Positions 17,573 to 34,119 of a DNA stretch of 64,000 nucleotides are shown here, one piece after another (positions within the stretch are counted from its first letter, which is position 1; the number at the start of each line of letters is the position of its first letter). The notes under the pieces are model-generated. The model worked only from the letters and a program-made list of their open reading frames with translations, made no database searches and was not told the origin of the DNA. The stretch comes from Pelagomonas calceolata. Taxonomy: Eukaryota; Sar; Pelagophyceae; Pelagomonadales; Pelagomonadaceae. Location of the stretch: positions 992,001-1,056,000 of the forward strand of contig CAKKNE010000005.1 of NCBI GenBank assembly GCA_918797485.1. The letters are read 5' to 3'. The position numbers and the translations under genes are program-made.

Positions 17573-20035
17573 TCACTTCTGATGCTCCTCGAGCAGCGCG
17601 ACGACGGCGGCTCGTTTCGCATGCTTTGCCAGAGCTAATGCATCCATGCCATGCCCGGGACCAGACGTCGCCGCCCGCGTGATATCGGCGCCCCGCCCTA
17701 ATAATAGCCGCGCCGCGTCGATGTGGCCTTCGTAGCAGGCGAACATAAGCGCCGTGTTACCATAGCTCTCTGTCATATCCATTTCCGCGCCCCGCTCCAA
17801 TAAAAGCCGCATCACATCAATGTGACTACCAAGCGCGGCGACCATCAACGACGTCACACCCTTCGCTGTATTCCAAGTTGACGTGCGGTCGACCTCGGCG
17901 CCGCGCTCCAGCAACAGCCGCGCGGCGTCGGCCTGGCCGACCTGACAAGCAATCCAGAGCGGCGTCTCGCCGTTCCCCATCGTCTGGTCAGTCGCGGCGC
18001 CGCCGTCCAGGAGTTGAGTCATCGCCTCGACGTTGCCGGTCCTTGCTGCAGCGTGAAGTGGGAATTTCGAATCCAAGTGTTCCTCGAGCAGCGCGACGAC
18101 GGCCGAGTGGCCCTGTTGTTTTGCGATGGCCAGCGGCGTCGCGCCTTCATTCATCGCCCGATCGACCGCCGCGCTGTTGTCCAGCAACAGCCGCGCCGCG
18201 TCGACGTGGCCGTTCTGGCAGGCAGCGAACAGCGGTGTCGCACCTTGCTTCTCCGCCCGATCGACCTTCGCGCCGTTGTCTAACAACAGCCGCGCCGCGT
18301 CGACGTGGCCGGTCAGGCAGGCCATTAACAGCGGCGTCGCACTGTCCTCGTCCGCCTTATTAACGTCCGCGCCTTTATCTAATAACAGCCGCGCCGCGTC
18401 GACGCGGCCATACGTGCTAGCGAGATAGAGCGGCGTCCGACCGTCTTTTGTCGCCCGGTCGACCTCCGCGCCGTTGTCCAGCAACAGCCGCGCCGCGTCG
18501 ATTTGGCCGCTCTCGCAAGCCATGTACAACAGCGTCCTGCCGTCCTCGTCCGCCTGGTCAACCTTCTTCGCGCCGCGCTCCAGCAACAGCTGCGCCGCGT
18601 CGATGTGGCCTTTTTCGAAGGCGGCGTACAGCGGCGTCCGGCCGTCCTTGTCCCGATCGACCTCCGCCCCTTTGTCCAGCAACAGCTGCGCCGCGTCCAC
18701 ACTCCCGTTTTCACACGCATGATACAGAATTGTTTTACCATCTTCGCTTAACAGGACCGTCGCACGGGCTAGATCCCGAAACTTCTCGGGATGTGGCACC
18801 CCATTCTCGTCGGTGTACTTGTCCGCGAGCTTGCGCTCCGCGGATCCACGCCCTTTCACGCCCGGATCCGACACGTCGCCCGGCAGCGTCTTCAGCGCAT
18901 CGACCAATATCGTCTGCGCAAGAGCTGCGTCGGCGTACAGCTTGTCGAAGTCAGTCTCGTCTTGTATCAAGTCGAGACGTCGCTCCTTATACTTTTCGAG
19001 CTCGTGGATCCCAGCAACGCCGCGGACCGCCTCGTCGTACGCGCCCTTTGACCGGCGCAGCGGGTCCTCTAGATCTGCAAACGTGTCGAGATTCTTCAAG
19101 CCCGGGAACTTCGCCTCGACCTCGTGCCGCAGCGAGTCCATCGTCACCTCGAGCTCGACGTGCTCCTTCGCGAGTTCAGTCAGGTACGCCCTCACGTCCT
19201 GCCGGTTCCGCGCCTCGTCGACGCGCAGCTCCGACGGCGTGTAGCCGGACATGGCAGACTTGATCTGCGCCTCGTCGCGGCTGGTGACCACGAGTTTGAT
19301 CCACGGCGGCAGCGTCTTGAGCTCGGTCGCGAGCAGCAATAGCACGGGCTTGAGCGCGTCGCGGGGCAGCTCGTCGAGCGCATCTATGACTAATACGAGG
19401 GCGTCGTCCGCGCCACGCGGCGCCTTGACGCTTCGCAACGGCTTCGCTACTAAAGCCTCAAAGAGCTCGTCGACCTTGTCGCTTTCGACGCCCGCGCTCT
19501 CTTTCAGCGCGTCTTCGAAGCCCTCCACCGTCGCGCACAGCATGCCCGCGAGAGAGCGCAGCAGCGCCGTTGGCGCGGACCGCGCCGGCTCGGTGTGCTT
19601 ACAGAAATGCCACGCGGCCGCATTTTGTTTATCGAGCAGTCGCGCGAGCAATTCAGCCGCCGCCACGCTCTTGCCCGTGCCGCCGCCACCCACAACCCAA
19701 AAGAGCTTGGCGCTATCAGCGTCGGTCCGCCAGCGGAGCACCGCCTCGAAGACCCATTCGCGCGTGCCGGGCAGGTGCTGCCCGCGCTTCTCGTTCACGA
19801 TGGCCGAGAAATCCAGCGCCTCCGCAACGCTGGATCGGTCGATGCCGTGGAGCTTTTCGTAAAGCTCCTCGGAGATCGCGGCCTTGGACTCCTTCCAGCA
19901 TTGTATTGCTTCATCCCTGGAGATCTTGGCTTCCGCGAACTTCTCCTCCCACGCGGGCTGCCACCTGGCGCCCGCCAGCTCCTTGGCCTCGGCAAGCGAG
20001 ACCTCCGCCGGGAGAGATGATACACCGCCGCCCAT
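17573..20035 (-). CDS. NACHT-type STAND NTPase with ankyrin repeats (NLR-like)
   Basis: 820 residues. The start MGGGVSSLP is a good N-myristoylation site (Gly2, Ser6). A ~80-residue N-terminal region precedes the NTPase: Walker A GGGGTGKS (116-123), Walker B LVLVIDALDEL (213-223), and KLVVTSRDEAQ as the sensor-1 strand. From about residue 425 to the end run roughly twelve ankyrin repeats, many nearly identical (DGRTPLY-A, DAARLLLDNGAEVDRA), so the DNA shows a ~99 bp periodicity. Sensor-ATPase-repeat is the plan of NLR proteins; a membrane-tethered ligand-sensing switch is inferred. Adjacent near-identical repeats point to recent repeat gain. Confidence 0.8.
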   Translation of the reverse strand: MGGGVSSLPAEVSLAEAKELAGARWQPAWEEKFAEAKISRDEAIQCWKESKAAISEELYEKLHGIDRSSVAEALDFSAIVNEKRGQHLPGTREWVFEAVLRWRTDADSAKLFWVVGGGGTGKSVAAAELLARLLDKQNAAAWHFCKHTEPARSAPTALLRSLAGMLCATVEGFEDALKESAGVESDKVDELFEALVAKPLRSVKAPRGADDALVLVIDALDELPRDALKPVLLLLATELKTLPPWIKLVVTSRDEAQIKSAMSGYTPSELRVDEARNRQDVRAYLTELAKEHVELEVTMDSLRHEVEAKFPGLKNLDTFADLEDPLRRSKGAYDEAVRGVAGIHELEKYKERRLDLIQDETDFDKLYADAALAQTILVDALKTLPGDVSDPGVKGRGSAERKLADKYTDENGVPHPEKFRDLARATVLLSEDGKTILYHACENGSVDAAQLLLDKGAEVDRDKDGRTPLYAAFEKGHIDAAQLLLERGAKKVDQADEDGRTLLYMACESGQIDAARLLLDNGAEVDRATKDGRTPLYLASTYGRVDAARLLLDKGADVNKADEDSATPLLMACLTGHVDAARLLLDNGAKVDRAEKQGATPLFAACQNGHVDAARLLLDNSAAVDRAMNEGATPLAIAKQQGHSAVVALLEEHLDSKFPLHAAARTGNVEAMTQLLDGGAATDQTMGNGETPLWIACQVGQADAARLLLERGAEVDRTSTWNTAKGVTSLMVAALGSHIDVMRLLLERGAEMDMTESYGNTALMFACYEGHIDAARLLLGRGADITRAATSGPGHGMDALALAKHAKRAAVVALLEEHQK

Positions 20036-22262: not shown

Positions 22263-22286
22263 GCTAGCGGCATGTAACACACTAGC
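22263..22286 (+). promoter_or_regulatory. CTAG palindrome, copy 5
   Basis: GCTAGCGGCAT then GTAACACACTAGC, in the 334-base divergent interval; 92 bp from the plastid-protein start and 220 bp from the start of the multidomain reductase gene. Confidence 0.65.
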
Positions 22287-22505
22287 AAGCGCGCTGTGCC
22301 ATTTTTGGACGCGTACGCAGCCTGTGGCAAGCATTCGTGCTCGTTCGTACGTCTGCATAAGCGCCTACATATCGCATCACTGCTGCGGCGCGCGTTAGCT
22401 GGGGTGAGCTGCTCGCTGCGTTTGCTGCTGCTCTGGCAAAGAGCCGTGCAAAGCCGGACGCCGGCGCATGCATTTGTAAATGCACCGCTAGCATCGCTGC
22501 GAACA

Positions 22506-25500
22506 ATGCAGAACGACGTCCGGGTCTACACGCCGCCTAGCGGAAAAGCACCAGACGCCACGCCCACGACGCTGATCAATGAAAGAGACGGCGTAATCGC
22601 TTTGGGTGCCTTAGACGCGACGTTCGCGCGCCACCCGGCCCGCGTGCAGCTGCTGCTGATCGTCGACGCAAAAATTCATGAGGGACGGTTCCGCGACGCC
22701 GTCGAAGTCGCGATCGAAGGCATAGCGCTGGGCCCCGTGCGGATGAATGGCGGCAGCGGCTGCGCGTTGAGTGTTGTCGAGAGCCAAGACGAGGCCCTCT
22801 TCTCCCAAAGACCGCCGTCGCCCCTCCTGTTCACGCGGGAGCCCTGTTCCGCGCCCCTGGCGTGGCGTCTGTCCATTGGACCGACAAAGTCTGCGATCGG
22901 CCTCAGCTTCGACCACGCTTTGTGTGATGTGGGCGGCGCCGTCTTACTACTCAAGCGGGCCTCGCGGGCCTACACTAGTGATCCGCCGCTGGCGCTGAGC
23001 CTCGACCGGAGCTGCCAAAGTAAAGTAGCTGCCTTACGCGCTGACACCCCCGTCGAACGGGTCAAGCCGCGGAAGGGCGGTTGTTTGGTCGTCGACTTCG
23101 CGTCTCATTGTGAAGCGGCGCCCGGCCGGACGCGCCACGCGGTCCTATTCGCGGACCTCGTCGCTGTTTTACGGGAGGCCGGCTGTAAAATAGACACGCT
23201 CTCCTTCGCGCGCGATTGTCGAGGGCGCCAGCTTCCGAGCGACCACTTCGGGAACGCGTCGGTGCTCGTGGAGATGCCCGCTGACTCGCCTTTGATAGAT
23301 TATGTGAATGCGCCAGGCGTCGTCAACTGCCTCGCTTCCGTCCACGTCACGTCGTGGGCGCGCGGCGCCGACGGCACCTACTTTGGTGGAAACGCGGCGA
23401 TGGCCGTGGGCCCTGCCACTCTCAAAGCCGCGGCGGCCTACTGTTCAGCGAGGGGCGGCCAGCCCAATATAACAATTGTGCCGGACGGCGACGGCCTGCA
23501 AGTGCTGCTGGTCGCGCCCACGGACCTCGCGAAGCGCGTGGCCCAGGTCCTTCGGAAGCGGTCGCAACAACGGCCCGTCGTCGTCTTCTTCCGGGGCGTT
23601 GGGGACCTGGGCGACGCGTGGGCGGCGCGGTTGCAGGGCGCCTGGGACGTCGTGCTCCCGGAGCCACCATCTCACGAAGGGTGGTTTCCCCTCTCTTTAC
23701 CCGTGACCGAGGCCGTGGCCGTGCCTGCTGAAGTTATCGACGCCGCCCGACGAGTCGTAGACACGTTTAAAGAAAGGAAGGTCGTGGTGGGCGGCTTCTC
23801 CCAGGGCGGCGCTTTAGCGTTAGCAGTGGCGTCGTCTCATTTGAAAGGTGTGGTGGCCGTGTCCGCCTGGGCTTCTTCAGAAAAGGTCGCGGCTCCCACG
23901 TACTTCTCGGTCGGCACGGCGGACCCGACCGTCTTGTTCGCGGTCGGCAAGGCGTCGGGCCTGCGCCTTCGCGGTGCGACCGTGAAACACGTGCAGCGCG
24001 CGAAGCACGGTCCCACGAACGCTGAACTCGAGGCCGTGCGTTCATTCATTGGAGACTGCCTAACACCAAAAAAAGGGGGCTGCGCGGCCTGCGGTTCATC
24101 AATAAACGACGAGGCGTGTCGCTACCGCTGCGTTCATGAAAATTGCGACGATGTAATTCAATGCGCCGAGTGCTCGACGAAGTGCGCGCGCTGCGACGGT
24201 AATTTACATGAGGACCGGGCATCACCATTAGTATTGCGACGCGAGTTATTCAGGGAGGTGTTGCGTGGAAACAACGAAGACCCCCGTTTGTTACTCGAGC
24301 GCGCCTTTGACGTCTATGCAGCAAGGCCGTTAATAGGTGAGAACAACGAGTGGTGGACCTACGCCCAGTGCGGCCGCGCCGCGAAGGCGCTGGCGTCGAA
24401 GCTGCCGGATGATGGGATTGTATGTATCCACGGCCGCAATTCAAAAGGCTGGCTGATTGCGGACTGGGCCTGCGCCCTAAAACGGGCGCCGTCCCTCGCC
24501 GTCGACGCGTCCGTATCGGTGGAGGAGGCCCACGCCCTCGCGTCTCGTTCTGAAAAATTGACGTGCGCGGTCGTCGACGATCATGAAGCTTGGTGCGCGC
24601 TCGACGGGAACCTGAGCGTGCTGCGCCTCTCTGATGACTCCTCCATCGAAGCACCCTTCACCAAACGGCCTTCGTCGGAACCGGTGACCTGCTTGCTGAC
24701 GCTTGGAAGTACTGGTTCTCCGAAGCCGCTCCGGTTCTCCTCAAATGATTGGGCCGACTGGTGTGGAAGTTCAGTCAAAAGCAAGAGGGAGCGCAACGCC
24801 CTGGAACGGCGCTCGGTGCGCGTGTCGTGTCAGGCCCTCGTCGCGCCTCTCGCACATGGTTTGAGTCGCCGCATGGCGTGGTCAGAAGTGCTGCACGGAG
24901 GCCGGTTAGGTATTGTTGATACGCGAAACGACGTCGTCTCTCAGATCAGAAAGTACGCCCCGACCCACCTAAGCGGGGCGCCGCGCTTCTATTCATTATA
25001 CAGCGGGAAATCTGGAAAATTGTTGGCGGGGCCGCGACTCCGCTTCGTGGCCGTCGGCGGTGCTGCCGTGCCGCGGTCGCTCGTCGCTTCCCTAAAGAAA
25101 CGGTTCCCGGAGGCGGCCGTGAGCGACGGCTACGGCATGTCCGAGGTGCCCGGCGGCATCGCGCGGGACGGCAAGGTTTTATCCGGCGTCACCGTGAAAA
25201 TAAGTGAAGACGGCGAGATTCTGGTGAAGACGGCGCGGGGGCGCATCCGAAACGTGGAGGAGGGTCAGTGGTTTCACACGGGCGACTTAGGACGATTTAT
25301 CGACGGGCGGTTGGAGGTGCTCGACCGCAAGGCTGATTCTGTGAAACTCGAGAACGGCGAGTGGCTCGCGCCGCAACGAGTGGAGCACGCGTTGGAGAGT
25401 TGTGATTCCGTCAAAGCTTGTGTCGTGATCGCGCGCGCGGGCTGGGCGGCGCCCGTCGCCGTCGTCGTCACGGAGGCGTCTCTCGAAGAAGTGAAGGAGG

Positions 25501-26807
25501 AGGCGCGAGGTTGTGTGTTGGCGCCCTGGGAGGTGCCCCGCTTTATTTTGAGGCGCGACCCTTTCGATGAGAAGGAATGCAGCGCGCACGGGAAGATAAG
25601 GAGGCACGTCGTCGCCGCAACCCACGGCCTCGTCGAAAACTGGGGGTCGTCGCTCGTCGAGCGCGCTTTGAAATTCCTGGCCGCGCCCTACGCGCCGGCC
25701 TTCGGCGAAGGTGAGGGCTGGTGGGCGGCCGCGGGCGGCGACTCGGTCGCCGCCGCGCGGCTGGCCGGGACCTGGACGGGCTCTTCAATATCCGCCGGCG
25801 ACGTCTTAAGATTGGCGCCGCGCGACCTCCACCGCAAGGCGCATGGTGTTTGTGAGGACCAGAAGGTTGATTGGGCCCGCGAGTGCGCGACGACACCACA
25901 CTCAGTCACAATGTTGCCGCGGCGATGCGCCGTGCTCCTGACGGGCGCCACGGGCCTGCTCGGGCCGCACTTACTGAGGGAGCTCGAAGATCGGGACCTC
26001 TGGGTGTTGTGCCGGCCGCCGGCGGCGCGACTCAGCACGACCGCGATCGTGTTGGAGGCGGACCTCGCGCGCGAAGACCTGGGCCTGTCGGACGATGATT
26101 TGAAAAGGTTGCGGGCGGCGGGCATCTCCGTGATCGTCCACAGCGCCGCGTGCGTCGATGCGCAAAAGACCTACGACGAGTTGAGAGACGTGAATGTCGA
26201 GTCCCTCGAACGGCTCGTCCATGCGTGCGCGTCGTCGCCGAGCGTGGTGCTGGTCTCGACGCTCTCGGTCGTTCCCAAACGGGCAGAAGGCTGGGACGGG
26301 GTTGGTCTCGTGCCGCCGGCCTGTGCTGAAGCTCTAGAAACGGGCTACGCGCGGTCGAAGCTGGTGGCGGAGCACCGCTTGAGTGCTTTGCGCGTCGGCG
26401 GCGCCGTCGCGCGGCTCGGGCTGCTGGACGGGCCCGGGAACTGGCTCGAGCTCACGTTGGCCGCTTGTGCGGCTATCGGCGCGGCGCCGGAGGGGTTGCC
26501 TCCTTTTGTTGGTGTGCTTGCGCCGCAGGTCGCCGCCTCGCGTTTGGTCCGATTGGTGGACGAGGCGTCGTCCGACATCCTATTTGTTGACGTCGACGCG
26601 ACGGCCTGCGGCGTCGCGCCGGTCTCTGTTTCTGATCGGGTTGCGGAGCTCGAGCGGCTCCCCTACGAGGCGTGGCGGCGGAAATGCGCCGAGGCCGGGG
26701 GCGTCGCGGGCGCGCGCGCCGTCGCGGCGCTGCCTCCTTCCGGGGGCTTTCCTTCCGGGGCGCGGCGGCGGTTGCGGGAGATTCGATCCTCCCTTGTTGT
26801 TGAGTGA
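22506..26807 (+). CDS. Multidomain acyltransferase-hydrolase-ZZ-adenylation-carrier-reductase protein (NRPS/CAR-like)
   Basis: 1,433 residues in one exon from the ATG at 22506. In order: a BAHD/condensation-like acyltransferase domain with HALCD (HxxxD, His ~137); an acyl-protein-thioesterase-like alpha/beta hydrolase with GFSQGG (Ser ~432) and a late KHGP His; a ZZ-type zinc finger (CAACG ... CRYRCVHENCDDVIQCAEC, ~525-575); an AMP-forming adenylation domain (~582-1045; LTLGSTGSPKPL, DGYGMSEVPGG, HTGDLGRF, LDRKADSVKLENGEW); a carrier domain with GGDSVAAARL (pantetheine Ser ~1080); and an NAD(P)H thioester-reductase domain (LLTGATGLLGPHLL, IVHSAACVDA, YARSKLVAEHRL). Adenylation-carrier-reductase is the logic of carboxylic acid reductases and alpha-aminoadipate reductase: activate an acid, load it, release it as an aldehyde. 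The front domains suggest extra acyl transfer and release. Substrate unknown. Confidence 0.8.
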   Translation: MQNDVRVYTPPSGKAPDATPTTLINERDGVIALGALDATFARHPARVQLLLIVDAKIHEGRFRDAVEVAIEGIALGPVRMNGGSGCALSVVESQDEALFSQRPPSPLLFTREPCSAPLAWRLSIGPTKSAIGLSFDHALCDVGGAVLLLKRASRAYTSDPPLALSLDRSCQSKVAALRADTPVERVKPRKGGCLVVDFASHCEAAPGRTRHAVLFADLVAVLREAGCKIDTLSFARDCRGRQLPSDHFGNASVLVEMPADSPLIDYVNAPGVVNCLASVHVTSWARGADGTYFGGNAAMAVGPATLKAAAAYCSARGGQPNITIVPDGDGLQVLLVAPTDLAKRVAQVLRKRSQQRPVVVFFRGVGDLGDAWAARLQGAWDVVLPEPPSHEGWFPLSLPVTEAVAVPAEVIDAARRVVDTFKERKVVVGGFSQGGALALAVASSHLKGVVAVSAWASSEKVAAPTYFSVGTADPTVLFAVGKASGLRLRGATVKHVQRAKHGPTNAELEAVRSFIGDCLTPKKGGCAACGSSINDEACRYRCVHENCDDVIQCAECSTKCARCDGNLHEDRASPLVLRRELFREVLRGNNEDPRLLLERAFDVYAARPLIGENNEWWTYAQCGRAAKALASKLPDDGIVCIHGRNSKGWLIADWACALKRAPSLAVDASVSVEEAHALASRSEKLTCAVVDDHEAWCALDGNLSVLRLSDDSSIEAPFTKRPSSEPVTCLLTLGSTGSPKPLRFSSNDWADWCGSSVKSKRERNALERRSVRVSCQALVAPLAHGLSRRMAWSEVLHGGRLGIVDTRNDVVSQIRKYAPTHLSGAPRFYSLYSGKSGKLLAGPRLRFVAVGGAAVPRSLVASLKKRFPEAAVSDGYGMSEVPGGIARDGKVLSGVTVKISEDGEILVKTARGRIRNVEEGQWFHTGDLGRFIDGRLEVLDRKADSVKLENGEWLAPQRVEHALESCDSVKACVVIARAGWAAPVAVVVTEASLEEVKEEARGCVLAPWEVPRFILRRDPFDEKECSAHGKIRRHVVAATHGLVENWGSSLVERALKFLAAPYAPAFGEGEGWWAAAGGDSVAAARLAGTWTGSSISAGDVLRLAPRDLHRKAHGVCEDQKVDWARECATTPHSVTMLPRRCAVLLTGATGLLGPHLLRELEDRDLWVLCRPPAARLSTTAIVLEADLAREDLGLSDDDLKRLRAAGISVIVHSAACVDAQKTYDELRDVNVESLERLVHACASSPSVVLVSTLSVVPKRAEGWDGVGLVPPACAEALETGYARSKLVAEHRLSALRVGGAVARLGLLDGPGNWLELTLAACAAIGAAPEGLPPFVGVLAPQVAASRLVRLVDEASSDILFVDVDATACGVAPVSVSDRVAELERLPYEAWRRKCAEAGGVAGARAVAALPPSGGFPSGARRRLREIRSSLVVE

Positions 26808-33060: not shown

Positions 33061-34119
33061 ATGGCGCGCCGCTGGCTCCTGCTCTACGTCACCCTCCAAA
33101 CGTGCCATGGGCTGGCCGGCTTCGGCGCGATGAAAAAAGCCTCAAAACCAAAAAAGAAGAAGAAGCGACCGCGGCCGATGTCCGAATGGAGGAAGCCGGG
33201 TAACGTCTTGCCGCGGACCGCCAGACCAGTACCTGAGTCGATCATGAGGCCCGATTATGCCAACAGCGGCACGCCGCGAGCGGTCGATCTAAGACCGTCC
33301 TGGATGATCGAGGTCAAGTCGAAGAAGGATATCGAGATGATGCGGGCAGCGGGACGATGCGCGCGGGAGGTCCTCGATGCGACTGGAAGAGCCGTCAAAC
33401 CTGGCGTCACGACTGATGAATTGGATGCCGTAGCACATGCAGCAACGATAGAACGAGGCGCATATCCCTCGCCGCTCAACTACCACGGCTTCCCGAAGTC
33501 CATATGTACTTCTGTGAACGAAGTTATATGTCACGGCATACCGGACGACATACCTCTACGAGAGGGCGACGTCGTCAACGTCGACATCACGGTCTACCTG
33601 AATGGCTACCACGGCGACTGCAGCGAGATGTTTTATGTGGGGGAGGTTGATGATCGTAGTAAAAAGTTGGTGGAGGCGACCTACGACTGCTGGCAGGCGG
33701 CGATCGAAGCGTGCAAACCGGGCGTGAACTACAAGCAACTAGGAGGGATTATTGAGGAATCGATAGCAGGTACGGGGTACAAATCCGTGCAGCAGTTCTG
33801 CGGGCACGGCATTGGCAAGCTGTTTCATACGAATCCCAATGTACTACACTACAAAAATAGCGAGCCGAACGGCGTCATGGCCGTCGGCCACACCTTCACG
33901 ATCGAGCCGATGATCTGCGAAGGTACTATTCAAAGCAATTTGTGGGCTGACGACTGGACCGCGGTCACGAAGGATGGCGGTCGGAGCGCGCAGTTCGAGC
34001 ACACGCTCCTGATTACGGAGGACGGCGTCGAGGCGCTCACGGGGAAGATTGAGTCTTCGCCTCTGCAACCGTGGGAGGAAAGTAGGGGGGGCTGGAAGGT
34101 TAAGTGGCCGTCTAGTTGA
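33061..34119 (+). CDS. Methionine aminopeptidase, type I, organelle-targeted
   Basis: 352 residues. It removes initiator Met from new proteins. The dinuclear metal ligands are all present: Asp175 (VVNVDITVYL), Asp186 (GYHGDCSEMF), His249 (CGHGIG), Glu282 (FTIEPM) and Glu313 (QFEHTLLIT); His158 (ICHGIP) is the substrate-binding His. There is no type-II insert. The N-terminus MARRWLLLYVTLQTCHGLAG followed by a Lys-rich run looks like a signal plus transit peptide, as in plastid MAP1 forms, so plastid location is likely. Confidence 0.9.
   Translation: MARRWLLLYVTLQTCHGLAGFGAMKKASKPKKKKKRPRPMSEWRKPGNVLPRTARPVPESIMRPDYANSGTPRAVDLRPSWMIEVKSKKDIEMMRAAGRCAREVLDATGRAVKPGVTTDELDAVAHAATIERGAYPSPLNYHGFPKSICTSVNEVICHGIPDDIPLREGDVVNVDITVYLNGYHGDCSEMFYVGEVDDRSKKLVEATYDCWQAAIEACKPGVNYKQLGGIIEESIAGTGYKSVQQFCGHGIGKLFHTNPNVLHYKNSEPNGVMAVGHTFTIEPMICEGTIQSNLWADDWTAVTKDGGRSAQFEHTLLITEDGVEALTGKIESSPLQPWEESRGGWKVKWPSS

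Follow-up and report, generated by a model that had tools for sequence, protein, structure and literature searches.

A Pelagomonas calceolata open reading frame joining an adenylation-carrier-reductase core to a thioesterase-like hydrolase and a BAHD-like N-terminal region

Carboxylic acid reductases and other nonribosomal peptide synthetase-like (NRPS-like) enzymes, including Lys2-type aminoadipate reductases, carry an adenylation (A) domain, a carrier (T) motif and a NAD_binding_4 reductase (R) domain in this order. In A-T-R enzymes, the A domain activates the acid, the T domain is loaded and the R domain releases the product by reduction. We analysed a 64,000-nucleotide stretch of the pelagophyte alga Pelagomonas calceolata (contig CAKKNE010000005.1, positions 992,001 to 1,056,000 of the forward strand; hereafter, the window), in which the frame 22506..26807 encodes a protein of the same order. 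In contrast to described A-T-R enzymes, this protein has an additional BAHD-like N-terminal region, a hydrolase and a cysteine module, and it scores below NCBIfam cut-offs. We read it as one polypeptide built round an A-T-R core, in which the hydrolase would edit the carrier and the BAHD-like domain would acylate, and give this joint reading a probability of roughly 0.45.

Reductase and acyltransferase domains are known to share a chain in protists. For instance, FARAT of Dictyostelium joins a fatty acyl reductase to an acyltransferase (PMC7375469), as does FARAT of Tetrahymena (work cited within PMC7375469), and these proteins are a precedent for the pairing. However, in the cited part of that source FARAT is described with reductase and GPAT-related acyltransferase domains only; moreover, the Dictyostelium protein ends in SKL, whereas the Pelagomonas protein does not. 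Algal proteins classed as “Other(A)”, such as those of Guillardia theta, combine A and carrier domains with a thioesterase or a thioester reductase (PMC7073580). Like the present protein, they come from an alga and combine A and carrier domains with a release domain, but no acyltransferase or zinc module is mentioned for them in the cited part of that source. No protein of this domain order was named in titles or abstract openings of the open-licence literature, among the matches listed, which agrees with an initial annotation made from the DNA letters, whose author knew of no such enzyme. The domain combination therefore appears new. Because algal A-carrier-reductase proteins have been reported and the full order was not found, the A-T-R core is already known, and the N-terminal additions appear to be the novel part.

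As initially annotated, the frame is single and uninterrupted, running on the plus strand from ATG 22506 to a stop at 26805-26807 and encoding 1433 residues with no internal stop. This ATG is the first within a longer open stretch (22278-26807). Given the base composition of 24045-24300, 1433 open codons would arise by chance with a probability of about 3e-29. G+C content by codon position is 0.67/0.52/0.75, a pattern common to the four other window genes compared.

Six segments of the protein were scanned separately against Pfam at E values up to 10, although HMMER filters remove most matches above about 0.1. Curated cut-offs were passed by three of the six claimed domains, namely Abhydrolase_2, AMP-binding and NAD_binding_4. 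In a comparison with sequences of solved structures, the matches were fatty acid-CoA ligases, thioester reductase-type domains and acyl-protein thioesterases. AMP-binding (PF00501) scored 85.3 bits against a cut-off of 29.9 (E 4.9e-24), and AMP-binding_C (PF13193) 19.8 bits, under its cut-off of 24.5 (E 0.0015). Motifs GSTGSPK, YGMSE, TGD and GKIRR occur at residues 734, 876, 925 and 1029. The A domain resembles CoA ligases for fatty and aromatic acids, which is the sole hint of a substrate. NAD_binding_4 (PF07993) scored 82.1 bits against a cut-off of 20.1 (E 4.8e-23), and the R domain features GATGLLG at residue 1147 and YARSK, with Y1281 and K1285 in a YxxxK arrangement. The top NCBIfam match (best 25 of 65 families) was the thioester reductase domain TIGR01746, at 90.9 bits (E 9.2e-26), under its cut-off of 213.35 bits; the carboxylic acid reductase model NF041592 gave 44.8 bits against a cut-off of 1300, and both models serve bacterial and archaeal annotation. 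The putative carrier was identified by its position and by a serine motif, GGDS (residues 1077-1080, nucleotides 25734-25745). As to which letters of the A, carrier and R motifs are catalytic, we assume the roles usually given to them. Table 1 lists the coordinates of all features.

Table 1. Features of the 22506..26807 frame, in window coordinates
Feature	Position	Strand	Residues	Family or motif
N-terminal HxxxD acyltransferase-like region	22506..23570	+	1-355	BAHD-like by motif order
HALCD, candidate catalytic His137 and Asp141	22914..22928	+	137-141	HxxxD motif
Abhydrolase_2 (acyl-protein thioesterase-like) hydrolase	23553..24050	+	~350-515	PF02230
Nucleophile motif	23793..23810	+	430-435	GFSQGG
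Cysteine cluster, probable zinc module	24081..24209	+	526-568	partly ZZ-like
Adenylation domain and C-terminal lobe	24273..25625	+	~590-1040	PF00501, PF13193
Putative carrier region	25638..25850	+	~1045-1115	GGDS
Thioester reductase domain	25914..26804	+	1137-1433	PF07993, TIGR01746

The core was also compared with a paralogue, L002, with which it shares 34% identity over residues 922-1371 (E 5.8e-8). In a global alignment the A-T-R order is colinear in the two proteins, and GGDS aligns with GGTS of the paralogue. Two features speak against the assignment. The carrier segment has no PP-binding or any other Pfam match, and the R domain falls short of that of L002 by about 130 residues when each is counted from the first residue of the NAD(P) motif to its C terminus, although part of this gap is a hydrophobic tail of the paralogue. 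The genome searched comprises 32,445,274 bases in 8 contigs, and phosphopantetheinyl transferase matches above cut-off occur at four places in it, so the means of priming a carrier exist. An NRPS-like A-T-R carboxylic acid reductase core is well supported, and the annotated module holds, A and R by Pfam and the putative carrier by its GGDS motif and position. Homologues of the core were sought more widely: 50 pattern matches of the A-T-R alignment in prokaryote genomes included no relatives, and the four pattern matches of the whole protein in viral contigs likewise included none, whereas L002 had three distant relatives among 75 pattern matches in prokaryote genomes.

Other carrier-containing proteins are encoded in the genome. 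The paralogue L002 (184-3507; matched part C2:5202254-5203717) is a second A-T-R protein with a frame of 1107 codons. It is carboxylic acid reductase-like, its top NCBIfam match being NF041592 (E 3e-79, below cut-off), and it ends in a short hydrophobic stretch and a basic tail that, by eye, resemble a tail anchor. L018 (715-3381, minus strand; matched part C6:15716-16096) is a third A-T-R protein and lies about 16 kb from the contig start. For the 888 of its 1238 codons that were scanned, the closest models are those for MxcG and aminoadipate reductase, neither of which reaches its cut-off, and the protein gives a clear PP-binding match. L005 (571-3303; C5:3327154) is an unusual carrier fusion, in which AMP-binding and PP-binding domains precede a long C-terminal part; this part, judged by eye, resembles a membrane region, and Pfam matches it with nothing at 0.01.

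The hydrolase upstream of the core had been described as acyl-thioesterase-like with a GFSQGG motif, and this description is borne out. Abhydrolase_2 (PF02230) scored 42.8 bits against a cut-off of 23 (E 6.9e-11), and phmmer comparison with acyl-protein thioesterases 1 and 2 gave a best E value of 6.3e-07. The motif, including S432, aligns with GGFSQGG of acyl-protein thioesterase 2; D473 and H501, assigned from motifs, are candidates for the remainder of the triad. The domain thus shares with the family the nucleophile motif, a candidate Asp and His and a significant profile match, but differs in being fused and in its length, about 165 residues versus 217 model positions. A stand-alone relative in the genome, L004, reads FLHGLGD where the fused hydrolase reads FFRGVGD.

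An acyltransferase fold of the HxxxD type had been proposed for the N-terminal region. The letters HALCD are present, and H137 and D141 presumably have the catalytic role known from the superfamily of BAHD and condensation enzymes. Downstream of HALCD lie RGRQLPSDHFGN at residues 239-250 and TSWARGADGTYFG at residues 282-294. In a small profile built from seven BAHD sequences, the HxxxD, FGN and SW...FG blocks of the region fall in the BAHD order. Alignment with L006, the one PF02458 gene of the genome, paired HxxxD, the GN block, SW...FG and a C-terminal PxGDG block, and a BLASTP comparison with this gene gave an E value of 0.002, in a single comparison covering the HxxxD block only. A regular expression for the BAHD motif order matches the region and none of 10,000 shuffles, but it was written post hoc and carries little weight; judged by eye, L006 and 2zba would fail a strict match to it.

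Several results weigh against membership in the BAHD family. The N-terminal segment has no Pfam acyltransferase match, only a non-significant match to an unrelated family, and a PF02458 search of the genome at E up to 10 found C4:955521 and not this region. In the small profile every block scored below zero, with 2.1 bits in total, a score that 10 of 2000 shuffles equalled or exceeded. A second, extended BAHD profile retained two of the three blocks and was outscored by 75 of 10,000 shuffles. Against eight individual BAHD sequences, which are not independent because several are closely related, the score was reached by 0, 1, 5, 6, 8, 14, 15 and 20 of 500 shuffles. The best alignment with 5kjv pairs SW...FG but not the two HxxxD motifs; in a MAFFT alignment of four sequences, HxxxD and SW...FG are paired but the FGN block is not; and no alignment was obtained between the first-exon piece of L006 and the first BAHD block. 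As a control, the first 358 residues or fewer of seven other window proteins were compared with L006. One of them, the M24 peptidase at 33061-34119, reached a z score of 3.4 versus 2.5 for the N-terminal region and outscored all 200 shuffles, while another control was reached by 14 of 200. AlphaFold2 models were too poor to use, with a mean pLDDT (predicted local distance difference test) of 34.5 for residues 1-600 alone and 28.5 for residues 1-355 aligned with L006.

We call the region BAHD-like on account of its motif order and alignments, tempered by the weak statistics and the control; this is a designation of moderate confidence, and the region is not a proven member of the family. It resembles BAHD proteins in the order of its motifs, but differs from them in being undetected by PF02458, shortened and fused, and in lacking an intact DFGWG. 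A search with the region against the whole genome returned only itself. As a side observation, the start of L006 (minus strand, ~2600-2790) seemingly lies in a different frame from its catalytic frame of 443 codons, which suggests a short intron or a frame change.

We consider the following scheme the most likely. The A domain would adenylate a carboxylic acid, fatty or aromatic and not clearly an amino acid, and load it onto the phosphopantetheine arm of T. The R domain would then use NAD(P)H for reduction of the thioester and so release the product as an aldehyde or an alcohol. The Abhydrolase_2 domain would most likely hydrolyse wrongly or idly loaded acyl groups off the carrier, while the BAHD-like domain would most likely take an acyl group from either acyl-CoA or the loaded carrier and attach it to the alcohol or amine product or to a partner molecule. 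The R domain could provide the alcohol acceptor, and the outcome would be an acylated, reduced metabolite, e.g., an ester. It is distinctly doubtful that the protein goes further and is a self-contained synthase, converting an acid to an acylated alcohol or amine with reduction, carrier proofreading and BAHD-like esterification in one chain.

The BAHD-like domain may instead act as condensation domains do, transferring the carrier-bound acyl group to an amine or alcohol, with the R domain serving for release only or playing a minor part. The HxxxD motif does share a chain with an A-T pair, and BAHD and condensation domains belong to one superfamily. However, the reductase motifs are present, and the N-terminal domain is distant from T along the chain. 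As a condensation domain proper the region was rejected, since no condensation profile matched in the Pfam scan; its motif reads DHALCDVG versus the HHxxxDG of such domains. BAHD acyltransferases fit the motif order better, which is suggestive given the modest statistics, and we regard the condensation-like role as unlikely. For the proposed HxxxD fold, the letters are present, the Pfam scan gave no match, and the region looks BAHD-like rather than condensation-like.

Alternatively, the N-terminal third could be a decayed or structural remnant, so that the protein would in effect work as an A-T-R reductase to which an editing hydrolase is joined. In accordance with this view, the region is undetected by any Pfam profile, the BAHD motif DFGWG is replaced by YFGGN at residues 292-296, where only FG is retained, and the stretch from FGN to SW lacks about 40 residues relative to the small BAHD profile. 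In contrast, HxxxD is retained, and the synonymous codon bias of the region (0.269) is like that of the A (0.190) and R (0.298) regions, an indication of coding rather than of activity. We consider a remnant rather improbable and retain the joint reading, with a BAHD-like domain that would acylate.

Between the hydrolase and the A domain, residues 518-563 (46 residues) contain 10 cysteines, whereas 1.4 are expected from base composition. The probability of such a stretch by composition is about 9e-07 for a single stretch and 0.0013 over 1433 positions. The cluster is thus a real coding feature that may bind zinc, and it probably serves as a zinc-binding module for linking or docking. Its spacing is C526-x2-C529-x12-C542-x4-C547-x5-C553-x2-C556, with extra cysteines at 538, 560 and 563. 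Compared with the usual ZZ spacing (C-x2-C ... C-x2-C-x5-C-x2-C), the last part and RYxC fit, but one gap spans 4 residues where the pattern has 2, and three cysteines are supernumerary. In the Pfam scan of the segment ZZ (PF00569) was not matched, C1_2 (E 9.4) being the sole family listed; searching the whole genome for ZZ gave 13 places, the cluster not among them, and the region itself matched only itself in the genome. The ZZ label given at first is therefore unproven: the cysteines are present and part of the spacing fits, but no ZZ profile match was found. Of the first three domains of the initial annotation, profiles detected the hydrolase but neither the acyltransferase nor the ZZ finger. 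A RING finger was also considered and rejected, because the BMI-1 match (E 0.018) has the wrong spacing.

The cysteine region is also where the unity of the gene can be questioned, as two genes, or a gene with an in-frame intron, might read as one frame. Synonymous codon bias is slightly negative at residues 516-620 (-0.03 to -0.19), and the lowest 85-codon window of the frame is that at codon 511; when 902 overlapping held-out windows of nine neighbouring genes were examined, 40 had values of -0.094 or less. Methionines are found at residues 1, 80, 257, 299, 790, 878 and 1136. The ATG at 1136 sits immediately ahead of the reductase, and that at 299 lies inside the N-terminal region; both are possible starts by the ATG argument, yet no stop precedes either. 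Since no in-frame ATG occurs among residues 300-789 of the frame, a split between hydrolase and A domain would require splicing from an upstream exon. Among 158 in-frame GT-AG pairs, 12 have one of eight chosen donor hexamers, and none of these has an acceptor convincing by eye. Nothing points to a repeated copy of an introner, because 24000-24330 matches only itself in the genome, in a search that passes over very common words. Against 1433 codons open throughout and a cysteine content improbable in noncoding DNA, two genes or an intron are highly improbable. The published genome of 32.4 Mb (six nuclear contigs, a plastid and a mitochondrion, 63.6% G+C) is described as having 0.45 introns per gene, and was assembled from Oxford Nanopore (ONT) reads and polished with Illumina reads (PMC9481584).

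Neither flank of the frame suggests a gene cluster. An ankyrin-NACHT protein and two proteins with no Pfam match (E 0.01) lie on one side; the opposite flank holds an Exo_endo_phos protein and a further protein with no Pfam match (E 0.01). At 17573-20035 on the minus strand, ankyrin repeats are combined with an NPHP3_N/NACHT-type NTPase (nucleoside triphosphatase) domain, so that this algal protein is laid out like an immune receptor. In the genome searches, two pairs of equally scoring matches were seen (C1:231332/C5:231220 and C1:111744/C5:111805), consistent with the duplicated region reported at the ends of contigs 1 and 5 (PMC9481584).

In the pelagophyte Chrysophaeum taylorii, megasynthases are reported to be divergent and non-canonical, with little gene clustering (PMC10366177, in the part cited here); consequently, the order of domains has to serve as the guide to function in algae of this kind. 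P. calceolata is described as among the most numerous eukaryotes (PMC13284251, cited in part). If its N-terminal acyltransferase is active, the protein would offer a directly testable way of making an acylated, reduced metabolite from an acid within one chain. If the protein were indeed a self-contained synthase, it would add a new class to the NRPS-like megaenzymes of eukaryotes, or else be a BAHD enzyme that depends on a carrier.

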